This document shows, one piece after another, positions 13,920 to 63,667 of a stretch of DNA of 64,000 nucleotides (position 1 is the stretch's first letter; every line of letters begins with the position of its first letter). The notes under the pieces are model-generated. The model saw nothing but the letters and a program-made list of their open reading frames with translations. It had not been told where the DNA came from and did not search any database. A program made the translations under genes and the position numbers. Location of the stretch: assembly GCF_001659685.2 (NCBI RefSeq), contig NZ_LXYE02000020.1, positions 124,001 to 188,000 of the forward strand, written 5' to 3'. This DNA is from Labilibacter marinus (GTDB lineage Bacteria > Bacteroidota > Bacteroidia > Bacteroidales > Marinilabiliaceae).

Positions 13920-15392
13920 ATGGCTAATTATTTTAATACATTACCGTTACGTGAGCAGTTGAATCAATTAGGAGTTTGTGAATTCATGGATAACACAGAA
14001 TTTGCAGATGGTGTTGAAAAACTAAAAGGTAAAAAAGTAGTAATTGTAGGTTGTGGAGCTCAAGGATTAAACCAAGGGTTAAACATGAGAGATTCTGGAT
14101 TAGATGTATCTTATACATTACGTCCTGCTGCTATCAAAGAGCAACGTCAATCATGGAAAAATGCTACTGAAAACAACTTTGCAGTGGGCACTTACGAAGA
14201 GATGATTCCTACAGCTGATATGGTTGTAAACCTTACTCCAGATAAGCAGCACACTAACGTAGTGACTGAAGTAATGCCATTGATGAAAAAAGGAGCTACA
14301 CTTTCTTATTCTCACGGTTTTAATGTGGTTGAGGAAGGAATGCAAATTCGTGAAGACCTTACGGTTGTAATGGTTGCTCCTAAATCTCCAGGTTCTGAGG
14401 TACGCGAAGAGTACAAAAGAGGATTTGGTGTTCCAACATTAATCGCTGTTCACCCAGAAAATGATCCTAATAAGGATGGATTAGAAATTGCAAAAGCATA
14501 TGCTGTAGCAACTGGAGGTCATAGAGCTGGTGTTTTACATTCTTCTTTTGTTGCTGAGGTTAAGTCTGACTTAATGGGAGAGCAAACTATTCTTTGTGGT
14601 TTATTACAAACAGGTTCTATTCTTTGCTTCAACAAAATGGTTGAAAAAGGAATCGACAAAGGATATGCTTCTAAATTTATCCAATACGGTTGGGAAGTTA
14701 TTACTGAGGCTTTAAAAATTGGTGGAATCACTAACATGATGGACCGTTTATCTAACCCAGCTAAAATTGAAGCTTTCAAAATCTCTGAAGAATTAAAAAC
14801 TATCATGCGTCCATTATTCGAAAAGCATATGGATGATATCATGAGCGGTGAGTTTTCTTCTACTATGATGGCTGACTGGGCTAACGGAGATAAAAACTTA
14901 TTGACTTGGAGAGCTGCAACTGGCGAAACTGATTTCGAGAAAACACCTGCTGGTGATGTAGAAATTTCTGAGCAAGAATATTTCGACAATGGTACTTTAA
15001 TGGTTGCTATGGTGAAATCTGGTGTTGAGCTAGCTTTTGAAGCTATGACTGAAGCTGGTATTAAGGAAGAAAGTGCTTATTACGAGTCGTTACACGAAAC
15101 TCCACTTATTGCAAACACTATTGCACGTAGAAAATTATATGAAATGAATAGCGTAATTTCTGATACTGCTGAGTACGGATGTTACTTATTCGACCATGCT
15201 TGTAAGCCTCTATTAACTGACTTCATGAAAAAAGTTGAAACCAATATTATTGGTAAAAACTTTAACGAAGGAAATACTGGGGTTAGCAACAAAGAATTAG
15301 TAGACGTAAACGAAGCTATCCGTTTTCATGATGTGGAAATTGTTGGTGCTGAGTTAAGAGATGCTATGACTGCTATGAAAGCAATTATCTAA
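13920..15392 (+). CDS. ilvC: Ketol-acid reductoisomerase, class II (long form)
   Basis: IlvC converts acetolactate and acetohydroxybutyrate to the dihydroxy acids of valine/leucine and isoleucine synthesis. The 490 residues and duplicated helical C-terminal domain mark the long class II form found in E. coli. The Rossmann glycine motif is [12 protein letters not shown] near residues 44-55. The cofactor loop carries [18 protein letters not shown], whose Arg, Arg and Ser match the NADPH-selecting residues of E. coli IlvC (Arg68, Arg76, Ser78, recalled). The gene is monocistronic: its own terminator follows at 15417, and ilvDBN start behind a separate leader. Confidence 0.97.
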
Positions 15393-15755: not shown

Positions 15756-15785
15756 TTTGGAGATTCAAAAAAATCTCTACATTTG
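15756..15785 (+). promoter_or_regulatory. Bacteroidota-type promoter of the ilvD operon leader
   Basis: TTTG (15756-15759) and TACATTTG (15778-15785) are 18 bases apart. This fits the Bacteroidota consensus TTTG/TTG, about 19 bases, TAnnTTTG. The start of transcription would be near 15791, about 28 bases before the leader peptide ATG. Between the two elements lies an inverted repeat GAGATT (15760-15765) and AATCTC (15772-15777), and just after the -7 element lies the palindrome GTTGTTTAACAAC (15791-15803); either could be an operator. Confidence 0.7.
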
Positions 15786-15818
15786 TAAACGTTGTTTAAC
15801 AACATAAAGCAAAACGAA

Positions 15819-15884
15819 ATGAACAATATTTTTTCACTCATTCTCATTAACGTCATTCTCTTGGTCATCACCAAGCGAACGTGA
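15819..15884 (+). CDS. ilv-leu operon leader peptide (21 residues)
   Basis: An ATG at 15819 opens a 21-codon frame ending at TGA 15882-15884. Residues 4-17 read IFSLILINVILLVI: five Ile, four Leu and two Val in 21 residues, the three end products of the genes downstream. The codons overlap the RNA arms of an attenuator, and the stop overlaps the anti-terminator arm. This is the arrangement of the E. coli ilv and leu leader peptides, where a ribosome stalled for lack of charged tRNA prevents terminator formation. The peptide itself needs no function. The frame is too short for ordinary gene calling; support comes from composition and RNA structure, both seen directly. Confidence 0.85.
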   Translation: MNNIFSLILINVILLVITKRT

Positions 15885-15960
15885 GAATTCTGTGCAAAAA
15901 ATAATCATATAAGATATTTTGTATAGGCCTTTCTCACATGTTGAGAAAGGCCTTTTTTTT
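15840..15960 (+). promoter_or_regulatory. Ribosome-mediated transcription attenuator (protector, anti-terminator, terminator)
   Basis: Four RNA segments can be named. Segment 1 is ATTCTC, present twice in the peptide codons (15840-15845 and 15855-15860). Segment 2 is GTGAGAA (15881-15887), over the leader stop codon. Segment 3 is TTCTCAC (15931-15937). Segment 4 is TGAGAAAGGCCT (15942-15953). Segment 1 pairs with GAGAAT in segment 2 (protector); segment 2 pairs with segment 3 over 7 bases (anti-terminator); segment 3, extended to AGGCCTTTCTCA, pairs perfectly with segment 4 (terminator). An inner hairpin CTTGGT/ACCAAG (15860-15865, 15870-15875) could act as pause signal. Confidence 0.8.
15925..15960 (+). 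terminator. Attenuator terminator before ilvD
   Basis: AGGCCTTTCTCA (15925-15936) and TGAGAAAGGCCT (15942-15953) form a perfect 12-base stem with a 5-base loop, followed directly by a run of T to 15960. It lies 40 bases after the leader peptide stop and 110 bases before ilvD, with no gene in between that it could end, so its role must be conditional termination. Confidence 0.92.
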
Positions 15961-16070
15961 GCCTTTAACTGAAACGCATAGTAAGCTTTTTTAAGCTTCA
16001 ATAAAATATAAATCGCATTTAAGCAAGTCACGATTCGTCCTGATGCTTGAGTCTTGATACAGATAACGAA

Positions 16071-17897
16071 ATGAAGAATAAATTAAGAAGTGCAACCACC
16101 ACCGAAGGCCGTAGAATGGCTGGAGCACGTAGCTTGTGGAGAGCTAACGGCGTAAAAGAAGAGCAATTCGGTAAGCCGATGATTGCGATTGTTAACTCAT
16201 TCACACAGTTTGTTCCAGGTCATGTTCATTTACACGAAATTGGACAAGACGTGAAGAAAATGATTGAAGCACAAGGTTGTTTTGCTGCCGAGTTTAATAC
16301 CATTGCTGTTGATGATGGTATTGCCATGGGACACGACGGTATGTTGTATTCTTTACCTTCAAGAGATGTTATTGCAGATAGCGTGGAATACATGTGTAAT
16401 GCGCACCAGGTAGATGCTATGGTTTGTATTAGTAACTGCGATAAAATTACACCTGGAATGTTAATGGCAGCTATGCGATTAAATATTCCTGCTGTATTTG
16501 TATCAGGAGGCCCAATGGAAGCGGGTAAAGTTGGCGATAAAGCACTTGATTTGGTTGATGCTATGGTAATGGCTGCTGATGACAGTGTATCTGATGCAGA
16601 CGTTCAAGCTGTTGAAGAAAACGCTTGTCCTACTTGTGGTTCTTGTTCAGGTATGTTTACCGCTAACTCCATGAACTGCTTAAACGAGGCAATTGGATTA
16701 GCTTTACCTGGTAACGGAACAATTGTAGCTACTCATGCTAACAGAAAGAAGTTATTTGAAAAAGCTGCTAAAATCATCGTTGAAAATACTTATAAGTATT
16801 ACAGAGACGGCGACGATTCTGTATTACCCCGCAACATCGGATCATTTAATGCATTTAAAAATGCGATGACTTTAGATGTGGCTATGGGAGGTTCTACCAA
16901 TACGGTATTACACATTTTAGCTATAGCACACGAAGCTGGTGTTGAGTTTACCATGGATGATATCGATAGAATATCACGTAATACACCTGTGTTATCTAAA
17001 GTAGCGCCTAATTCAGACTATCATATCGAAGATGTAAACCGAGCCGGTGGTATCATCGGAATTTTAGCTGAGTTAGATCGAAAAGGGTTGTTAGATAATA
17101 ATGTATCTCGTGCAGATGGCCTTACTCTTAAAGAAGCGATTGCAAAGTATGATATAATGAATCCTGAAGTTTCGGAAGAAGCCAAAGATATATACACTAG
17201 TGCTCCTGCCGGAATCAGAAACCTAACAATGGGCTCGCAAAAAACACATTACGCAAAGCTTGATGTGGATAGAGCAAATGGTTGTATCCGTTCTGTTGAT
17301 GAAGCTTACAACAAAGATGGCGGCTTGGCTGTTCTTAAGGGAAATATTGCCGCAGATGGCTGTGTTGTTAAAACCGCAGGTGTGGACGAATCCATCTTTA
17401 TTTTTAAAGGAAAAGCCAGAGTTTATCAATCGCAGGATGCTGCTTGTGATGGTATCTTAGCAGGAGAAGTTAAAGCAGGAGAAGTTGTTGTTATTACATA
17501 CGAAGGACCCAAAGGAGGACCAGGTATGCAAGAAATGCTTTACCCTACTTCATATATCAAATCTCGTCATTTAGGCGAAAAGTGTGCCCTCATTACAGAT
17601 GGTAGATTTTCAGGAGGTACTTCTGGTTTATCTATAGGTCACGTTTCTCCTGAAGCTGCTGCAGGTGGAGCTATTGGATTAGTTCAAACTGGCGACGAAA
17701 TTGAAATCAACATTCCAGAACGCTCTATTAATGTACTGGTATCTGATGAAGTTTTAGCAGAAAGAAGAAAAGCAGAGGAAGCAAAAGCTGAAAATGCATT
17801 TATGCCAGAACCTCGCGAACGTAACGTATCTAAAGCACTTAAGGCATATGCAAGCTTAGTTAGCTCTGCCGATAAAGGTGCTGTTAGATTAATATAA
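16071..17897 (+). CDS. ilvD: Dihydroxy-acid dehydratase
   Basis: IlvD is the iron-sulfur enzyme that dehydrates dihydroxy acids to the 2-keto acids of valine and isoleucine. With 608 residues it has the normal length. The cluster cysteines can be placed in [12 protein letters not shown] and [19 protein letters not shown], and the C-terminal domain has [24 protein letters not shown] at 16047 would add eight residues, but ATG 16071 ([15 protein letters not shown]) matches the family start. It is the first structural gene behind the attenuator, and ilvB follows after 66 bases. Confidence 0.97.
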
Positions 17898-17963: not shown

Positions 17964-19697
17964 ATGCAACCACAAAGCCAATTACTCATGGAAAAGAACA
18001 AAAAAGGAAAAGAGAGAATTTCCGGTTCAGAAGCAGTGCTTCGCTCGTTAATATGTGAGGGTGTGGATTTAATTTTTGGATATCCTGGAGGTGCTATCAT
18101 GCCAGTTTATGATGCCCTTTACGATTATCAAGACAAACTACACCACGTACTCACAAGGCATGAACAGGGTGCCGTTCATGCTGCACAAGGATTCGCAAGA
18201 GTTACGGGTAAGGTGGGTGTCTGTTTTGCAACTTCGGGGCCTGGAGCAACAAATACCGTTACAGGAATTGCTGATGCGATGATTGACTCAACCCCAATGG
18301 TGGTTATCACTGGCCAGGTTGCTTCACCATTACTTGGAACAGATGCTTTTCAAGAAATTGATGTGGTAGGCATAACGCAACCCATTACTAAGTGGAACTA
18401 CTTGGTTAAAACTGCGGAAGAAATTCCTGAGGCCATTGCTAAAGCTTTTTACATTGCTTCAACGGGCCGTCCAGGACCAGTAGTTATTGATATAACCAAA
18501 GATGCTCAGTTTGGAGAAGTGGATTTTGATTATGAAAAAGTAAATCATATCAGAAGTTATATTCCAGTTCCATTAACTAAGCCTGAATCTGTTCATGATG
18601 CAATAGACATAATTAATTCAGCAAAAAAACCAATGGCACTTGTAGGTCAAGGAGTAATCCTAGGACACGCAGAAGAAGAGCTAAGGGAGTTTTTAGATAA
18701 AACAGGTATTCCTGCCGCATGGACCTTATTAGGAATGTCGGCTATGCCAACTGATTATCCTTTAAATGTAGGTATGTTAGGTATGCATGGTAACTATGGT
18801 CCAAATGTTAAAACCAATGAATGCGATGTATTAATTGCCATTGGAATGAGATTCGACGATAGAGTAACCGGTGATGTTAGCAAGTATGCCAAACAAGCCA
18901 AAGTTATTCATCTAGAAATAGATCCTGCTGAGGTAAATAAAATTATTAAAGCTGATGTAGCTGTTTTAGGAAGCGTAAAAGACACCTTACCTGCTTTAAC
19001 GAAAGAAGTAAAAGGTAATACTTATCCTGAATGGTTGGCAGAGTTTAAAGCTTGTGATAAAATAGAGGACGAAAAAGTTATTTCTGGCGAGGTATTTCCA
19101 ACCCAAGAAGGAATGACTATGGGTGAAGTAGTTCATAAAGTATCAAAAGCATTTAATGATGATGCGATTTTGGTAAGTGATGTAGGTCAGCACCAAATGA
19201 TGGCTTCTAGATATTTTAACTTTAAGCAATCCAGAAGTAATGTAACTTCAGGAGGACTTGGAACCATGGGATTTGGATTGCCTGCAGCTCTTGGAGCAGC
19301 CCTTGGTGCACCAGATAGAGATGTTTGTGTGTTCATTGGCGACGGTGGTTTTCAAATGACAATACAAGAACTAGGTACTATTTGGCAAACCAGAGCAAAA
19401 GTTAAAATTATTGTACTTAATAATAACTTTTTAGGTATGGTACGTCAGTGGCAAGAGTTATTCTTTGATAGAAGATATGCATCAACTGAATTAATGAATC
19501 CAGATTTTCAGATGATTGCTAAAGGATTTGGTATAGAAAGTGCTTTAGTTGATTCGAGAGACAACCTTGATTCTGCTATTGAAACTATGGCAAAACATGA
19601 TGGACCTTATTTCTTAGAAGTAAAAGTGGAGAAAGAAGGTAATGTTTTTCCAATGGTACCAGCAGGAAGTTCAGTTTCTGATATTCGTTTAGAGTAG
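17964..19697 (+). CDS. ilvB: Acetolactate synthase, large (catalytic) subunit
   Basis: The ThDP- and FAD-dependent catalytic subunit of acetohydroxyacid synthase joins pyruvate with pyruvate or 2-ketobutyrate, the first common step to valine, leucine and isoleucine. The 577 residues hold the N-terminal GVDLIFGYPGGAIMPVYDAL with the catalytic Glu further on in LTRHEQGAVHAAQG, and the ThDP-binding motif GDGGFQMTIQELG to VLNNNFLGMVRQWQ. The ATG at 17964 is used; a second ATG at 17988 (MEKNKKGKERISG) is possible. The regulatory subunit follows after 28 bases. Confidence 0.97.
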   Translation: MQPQSQLLMEKNKKGKERISGSEAVLRSLICEGVDLIFGYPGGAIMPVYDALYDYQDKLHHVLTRHEQGAVHAAQGFARVTGKVGVCFATSGPGATNTVTGIADAMIDSTPMVVITGQVASPLLGTDAFQEIDVVGITQPITKWNYLVKTAEEIPEAIAKAFYIASTGRPGPVVIDITKDAQFGEVDFDYEKVNHIRSYIPVPLTKPESVHDAIDIINSAKKPMALVGQGVILGHAEEELREFLDKTGIPAAWTLLGMSAMPTDYPLNVGMLGMHGNYGPNVKTNECDVLIAIGMRFDDRVTGDVSKYAKQAKVIHLEIDPAEVNKIIKADVAVLGSVKDTLPALTKEVKGNTYPEWLAEFKACDKIEDEKVISGEVFPTQEGMTMGEVVHKVSKAFNDDAILVSDVGQHQMMASRYFNFKQSRSNVTSGGLGTMGFGLPAALGAALGAPDRDVCVFIGDGGFQMTIQELGTIWQTRAKVKIIVLNNNFLGMVRQWQELFFDRRYASTELMNPDFQMIAKGFGIESALVDSRDNLDSAIETMAKHDGPYFLEVKVEKEGNVFPMVPAGSSVSDIRLE

Positions 19698-19725
19698 TTA
19701 TTTGTCATCTTTAAAGATTGAAATC

Positions 19726-20280
19726 ATGCAACAAGAATTCACAATTACCATATTTTCCGAAAACCACGTAGGTCTCCTCAATCAGGTTACAACGGCTTTT
19801 ACACGTCGTAGTATCAATATTGAGAGTTTAAATACATCTGAGTCGGCACTCGAAGGAGTTCATAAATTCACGATTGTAGTTTTTACTACTCGTGAACAAA
19901 TGGATAAACTCGTTGGTCAACTCGAAAAGAAACTCGATGTTCTCAAGGTATTTGTTTTTACTACTGATGAAATAATACATCAAGAGCTAGCACTTTATAA
20001 AGTACCTACTGAAGCACTCCTCAATGGAAACGAAATTGAAGGAATTGTAAGAACGTACGGAGCACAAATTATGGAGGTAACGCCAGAGTATACCGTAATA
20101 CAAAAAACCGGGCATAAAGCCGAAACACAAGAGCTATTTGTAAAACTCGATAAATATGGTGTATTACAGTTTGTTCGTTCTGGTAGAATTTCTATTACAA
20201 AACTGAGAACTGAGCTCCTCGAAAAATACCTCAGGGAACTGAGAACAGAAAACAAGATTCGAGGAATCGAAACATATTAA
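19726..20280 (+). CDS. ilvN: Acetolactate synthase, small (regulatory) subunit
   Basis: The regulatory partner of IlvB gives feedback inhibition by valine or other branched-chain amino acids. The protein has 184 residues counted from ATG 19726 (MQQEFTITIFSENHVGLLNQV); a TTG at 19702 would add eight residues but looks artificial. The N-terminal ACT domain (VGLLNQVTTAFTRRSINIESLNTSES) is clear and a C-terminal IlvH-type domain follows (GHKAETQELFVKLDKYGVLQFVRSGRISI). Length is close to E. coli IlvH (163) plus a short tail. Confidence 0.95.
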   Translation: MQQEFTITIFSENHVGLLNQVTTAFTRRSINIESLNTSESALEGVHKFTIVVFTTREQMDKLVGQLEKKLDVLKVFVFTTDEIIHQELALYKVPTEALLNGNEIEGIVRTYGAQIMEVTPEYTVIQKTGHKAETQELFVKLDKYGVLQFVRSGRISITKLRTELLEKYLRELRTENKIRGIETY

Positions 20281-20352
20281 AGTAAAAAAAGAGTAATTAA
20301 TTATAGGAAAGAGGTCCTCCCGGCTTCTTCCATTTAAAGCGTTATAAATATT

Positions 20353-21846
20353 ATGGACAATAAAGTTTATATTTTTGACACCACGTTGAGGGACGGTGAG
20401 CAAGTTCCAGGTTGCCAGTTAAATACTATTGAAAAAATAGAAGTAGCTAAGCAACTAGAAAAACTAGGTGTTGATATTATTGAGGCCGGGTTCCCAATCT
20501 CCAGCCCTGGGGATTTTAATTCGGTCGTCGAAATTTCAAAAGCAGTTACTAATCCTACTATTTGTGCATTAACACGTGCTGTAAAAAAGGATATTGAAGT
20601 GGCTGCCGATGCTCTTAAATTTGCTAAGAGAGGCCGTATTCACACAGGAATAGGCACCTCACCTTACCATATCTATCAAAAATTAAACTCTAATCCTGAA
20701 GAGATTATTGAGCGTGGTGCTGCTGCGGTTAAATTTGCTCGTCAGTTTGTAGATGATGTAGAGTTTTATGCTGAGGATGCAGGACGTAGTGACAATGAAT
20801 ATTTGGCACGTGTAGTTGAAGCAATGATTGCTGCTGGAGCAACCGTAATTAATGTTCCTGATACAACGGGTTATTGTTTACCAGGTGAGTATGGTGAAAA
20901 GATTGCTTACTTGATGAATAATGTACCTAATGTTGACAAAGCCATTATTTCAACGCATTGTCATAACGATTTAGGTATGGCTACGGCCAATACTTTGTCG
21001 GGCATAATTAATGGAGCTCGTCAGGTAGAGGTTACTTTAAATGGTTTAGGCGAACGTGCTGGTAACACTGCTTTAGAAGAAGTAGTAATGGCTATTCAGG
21101 CGCATAAAGATCTTGATTTTAAAACTGAAATTGATGCCAAGCAAATCATCAAAACAAGTAAGTTAGTTTCTACTTTAATGCGTATGCCAGTTCAGGCAAA
21201 CAAAGCTATTGTAGGACGTAACGCATTTGCACATTCATCAGGCATCCACCAGGATGGGGTGTTAAAAAATCGTGAGACTTACGAGATAATTGACCCAGCA
21301 GATGTAGGTGTTAAGGAGTCGAGTATTGTACTTACAGCTCGTAGTGGACGTGCAGCTTTAAAACACAGGTTAGAAGTTCTTGGTTATAAATTAGATCAGG
21401 AGAAAATCGATCAGGTATATAAGAATTTCTTGGTATTGGCTGACTCTAAAAAAGACATCTCTGACGAAGATTTAGAGGTGTTAGTAGGTCATGAAAAGAA
21501 AGAAGAAAGAGTATTGAAGTTGGATAAATTCCAGGTGATTTGCGGTAAATCTTGTATCCCATCAGCTACTGTTACCATTAACCACAATGGCACTATTAAA
21601 ACAGAAACAGCTACAGGTGATGGTCCAGTTGATGCAGCTTTTTCTGCCATCAAAAAAATGATAGATATAGATGTTGTACTTGAAGAGTATTTAGTACAAG
21701 CTATTACTAGAGGTTCTGATGATATTGGTAAAGTACACGTTCAGCTTTCGCACGACGATAGAACAGTACACGGATTTGGTGCTAACGTAGATATTTTAAC
21801 TGCTTCGGTTTGGGCATATTTAGATGCTTTATCGAAAATAGTTTAA
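20353..21846 (+). CDS. leuA: 2-isopropylmalate synthase
   Basis: LeuA condenses 2-ketoisovalerate with acetyl-CoA, the first step of leucine synthesis. Its 497 residues comprise a TIM-barrel catalytic domain with [14 protein letters not shown] near the start, the metal-binding [14 protein letters not shown], and [15 protein letters not shown], and a C-terminal allosteric domain (about residues 390-497). The N-terminal sequence [16 protein letters not shown] is the standard LeuA form, unlike the second synthase at 24073. It follows ilvN after 72 bases, so the valine and leucine genes share the operon. Confidence 0.96.
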
Positions 21847-21858
21847 CAGAGATAAAAA

Positions 21859-21914
21859 TTTAAAGACGAAAGCTATAAAGAGGTTGAACAAGCTACTTTA
21901 TCTTTTGTCTTTAA
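21859..21914. repeat. Inverted repeat in front of leuC (family A, copy 1)
   Basis: TTAAAGACGAAAG (21860-21872) pairs with CTTTTGTCTTTAA (21902-21914) with one wobble, and the inner ATAAAG (21875-21880) pairs with CTTTAT (21896-21901), leaving a 15-base loop. The flank continues with AAGTACTTTATACTT. A related repeat precedes leuB (25644-25716): both contain AAGAC[A/G]AAAG and its complement and TACTTTATACT. Confidence 0.6.
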
Positions 21915-21965
21915 TATGAAGTACTTTATACTTGAAATAAATAATAACTTATAAATAATAGTAAA

Positions 21966-23363
21966 TTGGCAGGGAAAACACTTTTCGACAAGATTTGGGA
22001 TATGCACGAAGTGAAGACTATCGAGGATGGTCCTTCCGTATTGTATATCGACCGCCACTTGGTTCATGAAGTAACCAGTCCGCAAGCATTTGCAGGATTA
22101 AAGGCAAGAGGAATTAAAGTATTCAGACCGCAAAACACATTTGCAACGCCTGATCACAATATTCCAACCATCAACCAACACCTTCCTATCGCAGACGAGA
22201 TTTCAAGATTCCAAGTGGATACCTTGACTAAAAACTGCGAAGATAATGATGTAACGCTATTTGGTTTAGGTCATCCTAAAAATGGTGTTGTACACGTTGT
22301 AGGACCAGAGCTTGGGATTACTCAACCAGGTATGACCATCGTTTGTGGAGATAGTCATACTTCTACACATGGTGCTTTTGGTAGTATTGCCTTTGGTATT
22401 GGTACTTCTGAGGTTGAAATGGTACTTTCTACGCAATGTATCATGCAACCACGTCCTAAAACGATGAAGATTAACATCGATGGGGAATTAGAAAAAGGAG
22501 TTTCAGCAAAAGACCTTGTTTTATATGTCATCTCTAAGTTGACTACAGGTGGTGGAACTGGTTATTTTGTTGAGTTTGCTGGATCTGCTATCCGCAACTT
22601 AAGCATGGAAGGCCGTATGACCGTTTGTAACATGAGTATCGAAATGGGTGCACGTGGAGGTCTTATTGCTCCTGATGAGAAAACAATTGAGTACGTTAAA
22701 GGTCGTGAGTATGCGCCTAAAGGTGCTGATTGGGATACAGCTGTTGAAAAATGGAAAGCTTTAGTAACTGACACTGATGCTGAGTTTGACAAAGTATATA
22801 ACTTTGATGCTGCTGATATTGAGCCAATGATTACTTACGGTACTAACCCAGGAATGGGAGTTGGTATCACTCAAACTATTCCTGCCTTGGATACCGTTGA
22901 GGAAGCTTCTCAAAAAACTTACTTAAAATCGCTTGATTACATGGGCTTTGCTCCTAGCGAAAAGATGTTAGGTAAGAAAATAGATTGGATTTTTGTGGGT
23001 TCATGTACGAATGGACGTATTGAAGATATACGCACTTTTGCTAACGCTGTAAAAGGTAAGAAAAAGGCAGATGGCGTTACAGCTTGGATTGTTCCTGGCT
23101 CTCACAAAGTAGAAGATCAAGTTATTGCTGAAGGTTTAAAAGATATTCTTGAAGAGGCAGGTTTTGAATTACGTCAGCCTGGTTGTTCAGCTTGTTTAGC
23201 AATGAATGACGATAAAGTACCTGCAGGTAAATATTCTGTAGCAACTAGTAACCGTAACTTCGAAGGTCGTCAAGGACCTGGTTCAAGAACTTTACTAGCT
23301 GGTCCGTTGACTGCTGCCGCTTGTGCTGTAACAGGTGTAATTACTGATCCTCGTACTTTATAA
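21966..23363 (+). CDS. leuC: 3-isopropylmalate dehydratase, large subunit
   Basis: LeuC carries the [4Fe-4S] aconitase-type active site that isomerises 2- to 3-isopropylmalate, as a complex with LeuD. It has 465 residues. Cluster cysteines lie in [13 protein letters not shown] and in [13 protein letters not shown], and the [10 protein letters not shown]-type motif appears as [23 protein letters not shown]. The start is TTG at 21966: an in-frame stop lies 21 bases upstream with no ATG or GTG between, and the next ATG would remove the conserved start [10 protein letters not shown]. LeuC and LeuD probably also act on citramalate made by the synthase at 24073. Confidence 0.96.
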
Positions 23364-23381
23364 CCTTTAAATTTCAAGAAA

Positions 23382-23966
23382 ATGCCTATAAATAAGTTTA
23401 TAACATTAGAGTCAACATACGTACCTCTTCCAATTGAGAATGTAGATACGGATCAAATTATCCCGGCTCGTTTCTTAAAAGCAACTACTAAAGATGGTTT
23501 TGGCGATAATTTATTTGCCGACTGGAGATACAACAAAGATGGTTCTCCTAAAGCTGATTTCGTTTTAAACAAACCTGAATATAAGGGATCTGTTTTAGTA
23601 GCTGGAAAAAACTTTGGATCTGGATCTAGCCGTGAGCACGCTGCTTGGGCCGTTGATGGATATGGATTTAAAGTAGTTGTTTCTAGTTTCTTTGCAGATA
23701 TTTTTAGAAATAACTCTTTAAACAATGGTGTATTACCAGTGATTATCTCTGAGGAATTTCTAGCAGAATTATTCGCAGCAGGTGCCGATAATACAGTAGT
23801 AGTTAACCTTGAGGAACAAACTATTACTAATAAAGCGAACGGAAAATCAGAATCTTTTGACATTAATAGCTATAAGAAAAACTGTTTACTAAACGGTTTC
23901 GACGATATCGATTATTTAATGAACGCAAAAGACGAGATAGAGACTTACGAACGAAACAGATCGTAA
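23382..23966 (+). CDS. leuD: 3-isopropylmalate dehydratase, small subunit
   Basis: LeuD is the swivel domain partner of LeuC. The 194-residue protein shows the family pattern: IENVDTDQIIPARFLK near residue 20, GSSREHAAWAVDGYGFKVVVS, and FRNNSLNNGVLPV. It follows leuC by 18 bases. A strong hairpin with terminator features comes directly after the stop, which may lower expression of the following two genes. Confidence 0.96.
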   Translation: MPINKFITLESTYVPLPIENVDTDQIIPARFLKATTKDGFGDNLFADWRYNKDGSPKADFVLNKPEYKGSVLVAGKNFGSGSSREHAAWAVDGYGFKVVVSSFFADIFRNNSLNNGVLPVIISEEFLAELFAAGADNTVVVNLEEQTITNKANGKSESFDINSYKKNCLLNGFDDIDYLMNAKDEIETYERNRS

Positions 23967-23977
23967 TAAAATCATAT

Positions 23978-24016
23978 AACGGCATAAACTTTTTAGGGTT
24001 TATGCCGTTTTCTTCT
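23978..24016 (+). terminator. Intra-operon hairpin after leuD (possible partial terminator)
   Basis: AACGGCATAAAC (23978-23989) and GTTTATGCCGTT (23998-24009) form a perfect 12-base stem with an 8-base loop, followed by TTCTTCTTT, an interrupted T-run. It stands 11 bases after leuD and 64 bases before the citramalate synthase gene. A leaky terminator or a transcript-end stabiliser are both possible. Confidence 0.6.
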
Positions 24017-24072
24017 TTGAAGATTCATAAAGTAGATGCCGAATTTCTGCGTCTAGAACTAAACATGATAGC

Positions 24073-25629
24073 ATGAAGATTGAAGTAATGGATACGACGC
24101 TCCGTGACGGGGAGCAAACTACTGGGGTGTCATTTAACGAAAGTGAAAAGCTAGCTATGGCTGGTTTGTTAATTGAGGAATTAAAGGTAGATCGGATTGA
24201 GGTGGCTTCAGCTCGTGTTTCTGAAGGAGAATTTGCTGCTGTAAAGCGCATTACCGAGTGGGCAAAAAAACATGATTGCCTTGAAAAAATTGAAGTACTT
24301 GGATTTGTAGATGGAGACATCTCGCTAAAATGGATTCAAGATGCTGGAGCCAAAGTAATTAATTTACTGACTAAAGGTTCTTTAAAGCATGTTCAAAGCC
24401 AACTTCGAAAAACACCTGAGGAACATATGACAGATGTGGCCAAAGTAGTTGAAACTGCTGAAAAGATGGGCATCACAGTTAATGTTTACCTTGAGGATTG
24501 GAGCAACGGCATGCTTACCTCTCCAGAATACGTTTACTTCGTGATTGGAGAGATTCAGAAAATGAATGTGAAAAGAATTATGCTTCCTGATACTTTAGGG
24601 GTGCTTAATCCAGATCAAACATTGGAGTTTTGCTCTAACATAGTGGCCAAATTTCCAGATGTTCATTTCGATTTTCATTCTCATAATGATTACGATATGG
24701 CTGTAGCCAATGTTTTTTCCGCACTCAAAACAGGTATAAAAGGAATTCATACTACCGTTAATGGATTGGGAGAGAGAGCAGGTAACGCTCCTCTAGCAAG
24801 TGTCATCGGTATTTTAAACGATCATCTTAAATTAGAGCATAATTTAGATGAATCGAATATTACTAAAGTAAGTAAAGTCGTTGAGCAGCTTTCTGGTTTA
24901 AGAATTCCAGAAAATCAGCCCATCACAGGTTATAACGTGTTTACACAATGTAGTGGTGTACATGCCGATGGGGATAACAAAGACAACCTGTACTTTAATA
25001 ACCTGATGCCAGAGCGTTTTGGTCGTAATCGTAAATATGCATTAGGCAAAACATCGGGCAAAGCCAACATAAAGAAAAACCTTGAGGAATTAGGAATTGA
25101 ACTCGGTGCAGAGGACATGAAAGAAGTCACTCGAAGAGTCATTGCGTTGGGCGATAAAAAAGAAATTGTTACCATAGAAGATCTTCCTTTTATTATAGCC
25201 GATGTACTTAAAAGCTCATCGGTAAAGGATGCCATTAAAATTAGAAACTATCATCTTTCATTAGCACACGATCTGCGTCCATTGGCTTCTATTAGCATAG
25301 AAATAAATGGAGAAAGGCAAGATGAAACTGCTGTAGGAGATGGTCAATACGATGCTTTTATGAAGGCATTATGGCGTATTTATAAAAGATTAAATAAAGC
25401 ACATCCAGTATTAGTAGATTACTGGGTTAGTATTCCTCCTGGAGGAAAAACAGATGCCATTGTAGAAACCATGATTACCTGGGATTACAAAGGAGTAGAA
25501 ATTAAATCGAGAGGTTTAGCAGCTGACCAGACTGAAGCTGCTATTGAAGCCACTATAAAAGTGTTAAACGTAATAGAAGAAGGTTCGTTAACACGCCAGG
25601 CCAACTGGAAAGAGACATTAGAGAAGTAA
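24073..25629 (+). CDS. cimA: Probable (R)-citramalate synthase (LeuA-related)
   Basis: A 518-residue member of the LeuA/CimA/homocitrate synthase family with [15 protein letters not shown] (Arg11, Asp12), the metal site [24 protein letters not shown] and a C-terminal regulatory domain. Its N-terminal half resembles, as far as I recall that sequence, Leptospira interrogans CimA much more than LeuA: LKVDRIEVASARVS, LGFVDGD, NLLTKGSL and VYLEDWSNG. The three residues that shape the small pyruvate pocket there (Leu81, Leu104, Tyr144) correspond to Leu76, Leu99 and Tyr139 here. The predicted reaction is pyruvate plus acetyl-CoA to citramalate, feeding 2-ketobutyrate for isoleucine through leuCD and leuB. 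Substrate preference is inferred, not proven. Confidence 0.82.
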   Translation: MKIEVMDTTLRDGEQTTGVSFNESEKLAMAGLLIEELKVDRIEVASARVSEGEFAAVKRITEWAKKHDCLEKIEVLGFVDGDISLKWIQDAGAKVINLLTKGSLKHVQSQLRKTPEEHMTDVAKVVETAEKMGITVNVYLEDWSNGMLTSPEYVYFVIGEIQKMNVKRIMLPDTLGVLNPDQTLEFCSNIVAKFPDVHFDFHSHNDYDMAVANVFSALKTGIKGIHTTVNGLGERAGNAPLASVIGILNDHLKLEHNLDESNITKVSKVVEQLSGLRIPENQPITGYNVFTQCSGVHADGDNKDNLYFNNLMPERFGRNRKYALGKTSGKANIKKNLEELGIELGAEDMKEVTRRVIALGDKKEIVTIEDLPFIIADVLKSSSVKDAIKIRNYHLSLAHDLRPLASISIEINGERQDETAVGDGQYDAFMKALWRIYKRLNKAHPVLVDYWVSIPPGGKTDAIVETMITWDYKGVEIKSRGLAADQTEAAIEATIKVLNVIEEGSLTRQANWKETLEK

Positions 25630-25643
25630 ACAAATAAGACAAA

Positions 25644-25716
25644 AGTATTAAGTATAAAGACAAAAGAAATTGAGAATAAAAAAGTCTTTCGTCTTACTAC
25701 TTACTACTTTATACTA
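25644..25716. repeat. Inverted repeat in front of leuB (family A, copy 2)
   Basis: An imperfect inverted repeat: the left arm contains AGTATTAAGTATAAAGACAAAAG in two pieces, AGTATTAAGTA then AAGACAAAAG, and the right arm CTTTCGTCTT, TACTTA and ATACT. It shares AAGAC[A/G]AAAG and TACTTTATACT with the repeat before leuC, so it is a second member of one small repeat family in the same operon. No T-run marks it as a terminator. Confidence 0.5.
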
Positions 25717-25727
25717 ACAATTGAAAC

Positions 25728-26786
25728 ATGAAATTAAATATTGGAGTATTAGCCGGTGACGGGATTGGTCCCGAGATTGTAGAGCAAGCGCAAAAGGTGC
25801 TTGATGCAGTAGCAACAAAGTTTAACCACGAAATAGTTTACACACCTGCAATCGTAGGAGCTTGTGCTATTGATGAGGTAGGTGATCCTTATCCAGAGGC
25901 AACTCATGAGGTTTGTATGAACTCTGATGCGGTTCTTTTTGGTGCAATTGGTGACCCAAAATTTGATAATGATCCTTCAGCTAAGGTTCGACCAGAGCAA
26001 GGTTTATTAGCGATGCGTAAAAAGTTAGGTTTATATGCCAACATTCGTCCGGTTACTACATTTCCTTCTTTATTAGATAAAAGTCCTTTGCGTTTAGATA
26101 TCGTAGAAGGTGCTGATATGGTTGTTGTTCGTGAGTTAACAGGTGGTATCTATTTTGGTGAAAAGGGTCGTTCAGAAGACGGAACTAAAGCGTTTGATAC
26201 TTGTACTTATACCACTGAGGAAATTGAGCGTATCTTAAAGCTTGCTTTTTCTTATGCTGAGAAAAGAGATAAGCGCTTAACCGTAATCGACAAAGCTAAC
26301 GTATTGGCTACTTCTCGTCTTTGGAGACAAGTTGCTCAAGCTATGGAAGCCGATTACAAAGATATTGAAGTGGATTATATGTTTGTTGACAATGCTGCTA
26401 TGCAGTTAGTTCAATGGCCTAAGAAATTTGACGTAATGGTAACTGAAAACATGTTCGGTGATATCATTAGCGATGAAGCTTCTGTAATTACTGGTTCATT
26501 AGGTTTATTACCATCTGCATCAGTAGGTATTCATACTTCTGTATTTGAGCCTATCCATGGTTCGTATCCACAAGCTGCAGGTAAAGATATTGCTAACCCT
26601 ATTGCAACCGTTCTTTCCGCTGCTATGTTATTAGAGTCTTTAAACTTATTAGACGAAGCTGCTGCTGTTAGAGAAGCAGTTAACAAGTCTTTAGAGGCTG
26701 GAGTAGCAACTGAAGATATTGTAAACGAAGGCGAAAAAGCTTATAAAACTTCAGAAGTTGGAGATTGGTTAGCTAAGGCTATCTAA
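25728..26786 (+). CDS. leuB: 3-isopropylmalate dehydrogenase
   Basis: LeuB oxidises and decarboxylates 3-isopropylmalate to 2-ketoisocaproate with NAD; it can act on 3-methylmalate in the citramalate route. The 352 residues show GDGIGPEIV near the start, [23 protein letters not shown] in the middle, the [13 protein letters not shown] segment, and [27 protein letters not shown]. Conserved NAD-binding sequence [18 protein letters not shown] is present. It is the last gene of the ilv-leu operon and is followed by a strong terminator. Confidence 0.97.
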
Positions 26787-63153: not shown

Positions 63154-63193
63154 AAAAAAGAGCGTTACTTAAATTAAGTAACGCTCTTTTTTT
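63154..63193. terminator. Bidirectional terminator between convergent genes
   Basis: GAGCGTTACTTAA (63160-63172) and TTAAGTAACGCTC (63174-63186) are perfect inverted repeats, flanked by A-run (63154-63159) and T-run (63187-63193), so it works on both strands. It ends the oxidoreductase gene and the minus-strand gene at 63212. Confidence 0.93.
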
Positions 63194-63211
63194 ATTTTAT
63201 CTTATCTTCTA

Positions 63212-63667
63212 TTAAAAGTTCATTTCTCCAGCAGAATATTGCTTTACCAAAGACATAACAGCCTTTGAACAACCTTCTTCTCCTCCTTTAAATGAAAATA
63301 CCAAATTATATACTTTTGATTTACGACATATATACTCGATAGAGTTATACATTTTGCCACCCTCAAAATTACTAATTAACATTCTATCTCCATCAAAAAG
63401 TTGTAAAATAACTTTTTCAGGATTACCAACACCATTAGATGTATTAAATTTATAATGGCTTCTACTATTTAAAATTACACTGAACTTGATAGTACCTGTT
63501 TTTGTATCTTTTTTAGCTTTTTTAAGATCAATAGTAAAATCCTTCATGTATTGGGCATCACCCATTTCTTTTAAAGCTTTTTTAAGCAAATCATCACCAC
63601 ATTGAGCATTACTCGAAACAGTAAATACCGAAATGAACAGAATTGCTAAAACTAATATCTTTTTCAT
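63212..63667 (-). CDS. Exported protein of unknown function
   Basis: 151 residues. A clear signal peptide (MKKILVLAILFISVFTVSSNA, cleaved before QCG). The mature part has three cysteines (in AQCGDDLL, YICRKS and EGCSKAV), of which two could make a disulfide. The pattern of alternating beta-like stretches (GTIKFSVILNSRSHYKF, KVILQLFDGDRMLISN, YNLVFSFKGG) suggests a small beta-rich periplasmic fold. I recognise no family. It ends at the shared bidirectional terminator. TACCTTTG at 63779-63772 on this strand matches the -7 element and would give a leader of about 100 bases. Confidence 0.75.
   Translation of the reverse strand: MKKILVLAILFISVFTVSSNAQCGDDLLKKALKEMGDAQYMKDFTIDLKKAKKDTKTGTIKFSVILNSRSHYKFNTSNGVGNPEKVILQLFDGDRMLISNFEGGKMYNSIEYICRKSKVYNLVFSFKGGEEGCSKAVMSLVKQYSAGEMNF

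Follow-up and report, generated by a model that had tools for sequence, protein, structure and literature searches.

A predicted ribosome-mediated attenuator for isoleucine, leucine and valine ahead of ilvD in Labilibacter marinus and related Bacteroidales

The region ahead of ilvD in Labilibacter marinus most probably (at about 93%) represents a transcription attenuator of the ribosome-mediated kind, by which charged tRNA for isoleucine, leucine and valine is sensed. To judge from the sequences, the same switch is present in many families of the order Bacteroidales. Comparison of these sequences points to a conserved leader frame, composition and spacing, and to mutually exclusive pairings that co-vary. 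All coordinates refer to the window, i.e. the whole stretch of 64,000 nt of DNA that was analysed.

In the proposed mechanism, the promoter would fire and start transcription at about position 15790, as estimated from its location, giving a leader RNA with a 21-codon frame that would be translated. If isoleucine, leucine or valine is short, a ribosome would wait at a codon for one of them (ILV codon), with its leading edge remaining 5' of segment 2. The free segment 2 would pair with segment 3, the terminator would be blocked, and ilvD to leuB would be transcribed. With a good supply, the ribosome would get to the stop codon located in segment 2 and cover this segment, and the terminator, made of segments 3 and 4, would form and act in vivo. 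This logic, known from attenuators of the E. coli ilvGMEDA and leu type, was invoked in the sequence-only reading, and is supported by the conserved frame, the covariation and the composition. Features of the element and of the operon that it would control are as follows.

15756-15785, plus strand: predicted promoter of Bacteroidota type; TTTG at 15756-15759, 18-base spacer, TACATTTG at 15778-15785 (sequence)
15819-15884, plus strand: leader peptide frame, MNNIFSLILINVILLVITKRT and stop (sequence, conservation, codon bias, initiation context)
15846-15869, plus strand: codons 10-17 (I N V I L L V I), the putative main run for sensing (stall scan by folding)
15855-15875, plus strand: segment 1, protector side, ATTCTC at 15855-15860 and hairpin CTTGGT/ACCAAG at 15860-15875 (sequence, folding, weak covariation)
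15881-15887, plus strand: segment 2, GTGAGAA, 5' side of the antiterminator (sequence, covariation)
15889-15927, plus strand: A+U-rich hairpin inside the antiterminator, bringing together segments 2 and 3 (folding prediction, window only)
15931-15937, plus strand: segment 3, TTCTCAC, common to the antiterminator (with 2) and the terminator (with 4) (sequence, covariation)
15925-15960, plus strand: predicted intrinsic terminator, segments 3:4 (terminator scan, covariation, folding)
16071-17897, plus strand: ilvD (dihydroxy-acid dehydratase), which heads the operon (NCBIfam; start set by inspection and by agreement with relatives)
17964-26786, plus strand: remaining operon genes, ilvB to leuB (NCBIfam)
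from 17964, plus strand: ilvB (NCBIfam)
from 19702, plus strand: ilvN (NCBIfam)
from 20353, plus strand: leuA (NCBIfam)
from 21966, plus strand: leuC (NCBIfam)
from 23382, plus strand: leuD (NCBIfam)
from 24073, plus strand: cimA-like gene (NCBIfam)
from 25728, plus strand: leuB (NCBIfam)

The leader frame is comprised of 21 codons, and 11 of the 20 that come after Met specify Ile, Leu or Val (5 Ile, 4 Leu, 2 Val). Its stop codon is positioned within segment 2. The intrinsic terminator predicted between the leader and ilvD has a 12-bp stem (15925-15953), a 5-base loop and a T-run (15953-15960), with an energy of -19.0 kcal/mol, and it is the single terminator detected on both strands between 15400 and 16400 (shuffle mean 0.4). 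The antiterminator fold, predicted for the window at 15878-15940, has -18.6 kcal/mol, and the energies of the two structures are balanced. The motif ATTCTC is present twice, at 15840-15845 and in segment 1, and its protector partner GAGAAT lies at 15883-15888. The promoter, frame, terminator with T-run and duplicated ATTCTC had all been proposed from the sequence alone, and each was found again at the same coordinates. A scan for sigma-70 promoters gave two sites, under the shuffle mean of 4.5.

The gene order after the leader, according to NCBIfam models, is ilvD-ilvB-ilvN-leuA-leuC-leuD-cimA-leuB, in which the cimA-like gene is best matched by NF042433 with 641 bits, under the model cut-off of 950. 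Gene order and spacing suggest that ilvD to leuB form one transcript. The nearest named match of IlvD is in a Saccharicrinis sp. record, with 78% identity, in a comparison that may omit the nearest genomes. The ilvC gene is located upstream of the leader on the same strand (13920-15392), and inspection of the stretch preceding it disclosed no such leader. Because of this position of ilvC, the terminator could be thought to end transcription coming from upstream, either of ilvC or of a small RNA, next to a frame that is accidental. We consider this extremely improbable, since a TAnnTTTG element is present in the 130 nt that precede the leader start in 63 of 66 cases, compared with 10% of mononucleotide shuffles; two further observations against it are given below.

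To describe conservation of the attenuator, two sets of ilvD-upstream sequences were used, one with 30 loci, taken from the own genome and 29 relatives (among the 34 of 41 genomes with a match), and the other with 80 loci of named genomes. Division into 88 Bacteroidales and 22 other loci followed record titles for L032-L111 and computed kinship for L002-L031. A fixed rule combined the terminator score, a frame of 12-34 codons, an ILV content of at least 40% and at least six codons, and a stop 15-75 nt before the terminator. It was passed by 66 of 88 Bacteroidales loci and by none of 880 dinucleotide shuffles, which also argues against an accidental frame. None of the 22 other-group loci passed; three of them have less than 200 nt of upstream DNA and are for this reason weak controls, and some Bacteroidales loci are also short upstream. 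Within the 30-locus set 26 pass, L013, L019 and L027 carry the element by eye, and in L031 it is absent. Among named Bacteroidales loci 40 of 58 pass, and L082 has the element by eye; by eye, four of the 22 Bacteroidales loci that fail the rule are thus carriers. The misses include L095, L098, L106, L109 and L110, labelled Prevotella or Prevotellaceae, although L047 and L056 with the same label pass.

The same layout extends across families, with leaders such as MKFNLSLILDIIIILVVIIIRT and MKLFASLILVVVIILVVHH, or MNLHTSVNLAVLHIIRVVVVASRA in a Bacteroides record. In total, 71 candidate leaders were collected, 68 by rule from 65 loci and 3 added by eye; the numbers 66 and 68 differ because the per-locus rule and the per-frame selection are slightly different. 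The mean ILV share of leader codons is 56.6% over the 68 frames, themselves selected at 40% or more. Both the short frame and its ILV content are thus conserved in relatives, as the check proposed in the sequence-only reading had asked. Alignment A2 contains 64 of the 71 leaders, some of them with frames begun at a later codon (e.g. L046, L051, L086, L097), and A3 contains 54 of those 64. Excluded from A2 are L030, L062, L088, L089 and the second units of L079, L083 and L085. The last three loci, together with L192 and L193, show tandem units of leader and terminator ahead of ilvD, as if two attenuators were placed in series.

In A2, terminator cells are paired in 92.7%, double changes are found in 10 of 12 pairs, and the co-variation score is.381 versus.226 in shuffles. 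The antiterminator is paired in 89.0% of cells, with co-variation of.215 versus.128 in shuffles; its doubly changed pairs (3) are not above shuffles (288/500), and neither are the pair types. Because the extension of the antiterminator into the terminator loop is species-specific (e.g. GCAGAAGTGAGA with TCTCACTTCTGC), cognate and non-cognate helices were also compared, using 40 representatives less than 70% identical, among which kinship is reduced and still present. This comparison gave z of 9.6 for the antiterminator 2:3 and 12.0 for the terminator 3:4 (both 0/20000), and 4.2 for the protector 1:2 (3/20000, with kinship among the 40 only reduced). Column by column, covariation of the protector is not significant in the 64 leaders. 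Pairing of GTGAGAA (15881-15887) with TTCTCAC (15931-15937) thus stands as originally proposed, with co-variation above shuffles, and the antiterminator and terminator are predicted to be mutually exclusive. Of the three stems expected to co-vary, the terminator and the antiterminator do, and the protector does so weakly. Both ATTCTC and GAGAAT are present, but folding of 15852-15890 alone favours the CTTGGT/ACCAAG hairpin (15860-15875) with flanking pairs instead of the suggested register.

Positions of the ribosome were modelled by folding the RNA left free up to the terminator loop, on the assumption that the leading edge lies 13 nt beyond the A site. In the 64 leaders, segment 2 is left free by 681 of 720 ILV codons. 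Antiterminator pairs average 10.2 when the A site holds the first ILV codon, 10.4 when it holds the last ILV codon that leaves segment 2 free (so chosen by definition), and 0.5 when the ribosome is at the stop codon, where 56 of 64 leaders have less than 2. Between the last-free ILV codon and the stop, every leader except L087 (63 of 64) loses at least 4 expected pairs. The model therefore predicts that a stalled ribosome frees segment 2 and a ribosome at the stop masks it. In the window the switch point falls at codons 18-19, beyond the last ILV codon (17), and the run of codons 10-17 probably has the sensing function, as a ribosome held there would keep segment 2 free.

Without a ribosome, the mean number of antiterminator pairs is 7.4, in a range from 0 to 15.5 over the 64 leaders, so the untranslated default seems species-dependent. 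When the window RNA is folded without a ribosome as far as the terminator loop (15940), it adopts the antiterminator with 0.97, and for this reason the E. coli default, termination without translation, is not assured. At equilibrium, the predicted fold of the complete window leader contains the terminator. Which fold wins in the untranslated full leader depends on kinetics.

Rare codons are preferred in leaders. GTC accounts for 47% of Val codons in 68 leaders, versus 12% in the ilvD genes that belong to them and 3% in 11 genes of the window. CTC makes up 59% of Leu codons in own-family leaders versus 5-6% in genes, and 33% versus 13% over all leaders, while ATT accounts for 78% of Ile codons versus 46%. 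Use of CTC is probably fixed in part by pairing, and that of GTC less so. Among 50 tRNA matches obtained in the genome with ARAGORN there is one tRNA-Leu(GAG), and for Val solely tRNA-Val(UAC), so that GTC would be read by wobble; this is provisional, since the matches include no Ile or Asp tRNAs and the set is incomplete. In the theory of Elf and Ehrenberg (PMC1183508), leaders employ the codons most sensitive to starvation. With regard to initiation, a Shine-Dalgarno-like site was found ahead of none of 62 ATG leaders, in agreement with the earlier expectation of initiation without strong sites, and positions -5 to -13 before the leader ATG contain 50-63% A.

A strict covariance model of ilvD leaders (R1) has matches in 112 of the 295 genomes available for the order, a count in which ilvD carriers are not separated, and in 57 of 395 genomes of the phylum, order included. 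A second match in the window (63156-63262, minus strand) shows no leader by eye. The own genome has 24 other matches, all with 36 bits or less, and seven of them that were viewed (L113-L119) revealed no convincing leader. Twenty further regions of the order matched by R1 were chosen by hand and not at random, most of them as second matches in already matched genomes; eight more were also hand-picked from the order-wide matches. With the downstream gene named by the opening residues of the frame that follows, 13 of the 20 precede leuA and 7 precede ilvD. Presence of the element at leuA is the second observation that speaks against a terminator serving upstream transcription.

Leaders of leuA contain Ile and Leu and are nearly devoid of Val, which makes up 2.3% of residues in the 13 leuA leaders and 19.1% in the 68 ilvD leaders (0/20000 permutations), in spite of R1 having been trained on Val-rich leaders and its bias opposing the finding of Val-poor ones. 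Val is absent from 8 of 13 leuA leaders and from 3 of 68 ilvD leaders. Downstream genes, searched by tblastn with window proteins for 6 of the 13, are always leuA-leuC-leuD-cimA-leuB, with only 37% identity for the last gene in L200. The steps encoded by these genes lead to Leu and, via citramalate, to Ile, and none is Val-specific, which would explain leaders that contain Ile and are poor in Val; according to PMC9026213, CimA provides a different initial reaction on the way to Ile. In the window, one attenuator, that of ilvD, precedes the genes from leuA to leuB as well, and its leader contains Ile, Leu and Val; R1 has no match in the 72 nt that separate ilvN from leuA (20281-20352), and in the 13 regions of relatives leuA has a separate, nearly Val-free attenuator. 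The earlier claim that leader composition fits the products Ile, Val and Leu is thus borne out, and composition shifts where the operon differs.

In the own genome, a candidate His attenuator precedes hisG (L232, 1332-1437, G000:C11), with the leader MTNITHHHGHHFYLL, the terminator GGAGGGCTTACCGTATGGAAAGCCCTC followed by a T-run, and the promoter element TACTTTTG. A candidate Trp attenuator precedes trpE (L233, 1288-1409, G000:C65), with the leader MTNLMNNTWWWHWLFLK and a 14-bp terminator, and without TAnnTTTG within 70 nt upstream. No such leader was seen by eye at cysK of this genome. These differences in composition bear on the possibility that the leader is a gene for a small hydrophobic protein with its own function, and the terminator merely its end. 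Leader peptides are indeed short and hydrophobic, and their sequences are conserved in the family. However, their composition tracks the operon (Ile, Leu and Val at ilvD, Ile and Leu at leuA, a His run at hisG, a Trp run at trpE), segment 2 co-varies with the terminator arm, and rare synonymous codons are favoured, and we regard a protein gene as very unlikely.

Trp and His leaders were also picked up by R1 elsewhere in the phylum. Leaders rich in Cys or with a Cys run, such as MTPAHFMANCCCCCKTCQSEREACI, precede terminators in L163, L173 and L165, followed by genes that by eye are O-acetylhomoserine sulfhydrylase-like, cysK-like and carbonic anhydrase-like; these are candidate cysteine attenuators in Bacteroidota. 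Ile-rich leaders with terminators were observed elsewhere in the class or phylum, ahead of ilvE-like genes in L150, L151, L153, L158 and L166 and of an ilvA-like gene in L159 (by eye).

A search of the window and 13 related loci against 4227 Rfam families gave no match at gathering score. At gathering as well as loose settings, no Rfam leader family exceeded threshold. A weak match to PyrR (30 bits, cut-off 54) could hint at a regulated terminator read by a T-box, a metabolite riboswitch or an RNA-binding protein instead of the ribosome. The lack of gathering-score matches in the window and the 13 loci speaks against this, and such a reader would not account for the coding frame, the choice of codons or the spacing, so hardly any likelihood remains for it.

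Compared with known systems, the predicted ribosome-mediated attenuator resembles those of E. coli ilvGMEDA, ilvBN and leu in having a leader rich in the operon's amino acids with biased codons, an exclusive antiterminator and terminator, and a stop codon that lets a finishing ribosome mask segment 2. It differs from the E. coli ilv and leu systems in the lack of a Shine-Dalgarno-like site (0/62), in a protector that is weak and variable, in having no Rfam match, and in an operon with a cimA-like gene. The Bacteroid-trp RNA motif (RF01692) is linked to trp genes and has the nature of a leader peptide; it gave no gathering-score match in the window, nor in two loci with trp leaders that were scanned from other genomes. 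Corynebacterium belongs to Actinobacteria, unlike the host of the Bacteroidales element. Its ilvBNC attenuator is similar in combining an upstream frame and RNA hairpins at a branched-chain operon outside Proteobacteria, according to PMC11857589 and PMC10272879. E. coli operons with ribosome-mediated attenuation are listed in PMC1183508. As stated by Naville and Gautheret (2010; PMC2965389), no leader-peptide system was known outside Proteobacteria and Actinobacteria before theirs in Firmicutes.

Within the phylum, a transcriptome study of Flavobacterium psychrophilum (2021; PMC9723704) derived from its transcript maps strong clues to attenuation by leader peptides at the head of amino-acid operons, and the term ilv does not occur in its main text. 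Bacteroid-trp was presented by Weinberg (2010; PMC2864571) as a likely cis-regulatory RNA of Bacteroidetes, and short frames reminiscent of leaders are mentioned for B. thetaiotaomicron in PMC7366714. The literature search found no description of a Bacteroidota ilv or leu attenuator in the texts as available; Lopatovskaya (2010, cited in PMC4833913) may cover Bacteroidetes. The earlier remark that such attenuation is little documented in Bacteroidota is therefore right in that little has been written, and has to be tempered because attenuation was hinted at in F. psychrophilum and, since 2010, by Bacteroid-trp, as far as the available texts go.

A broader and rather doubtful proposal is that Bacteroidota have a widespread Shine-Dalgarno-independent attenuation network, with leaders spelling the amino acids of their operons, gated by the ribosome and reading through by default. 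Leaders would comprise I/L/V at ilvD, nearly Val-free I/L at leuA-leuCD-cimA-leuB, and those for His, Trp, Ile and perhaps Cys. Termination would require a ribosome that finishes the leader, the protector being too weak to free the terminator alone.

Bacteroidota mRNAs lack Shine-Dalgarno sites and their ribosomes fail to recognise them, as reported in PMC6847099 and PMC9976891. Attenuation depends on prompt initiation at the leader and on coupling of ribosome and polymerase, and its design looks intact here despite the complete lack of Shine-Dalgarno-like sites among ATG leaders. The element would constitute an RNA family undetected by Rfam release 15. Gut genera, among them Bacteroides and Phocaeicola (L042, L054, L060), probably use it to regulate their supply of branched-chain amino acids, and it may serve as a natural reporter of ribosome-polymerase coupling in Bacteroidota.
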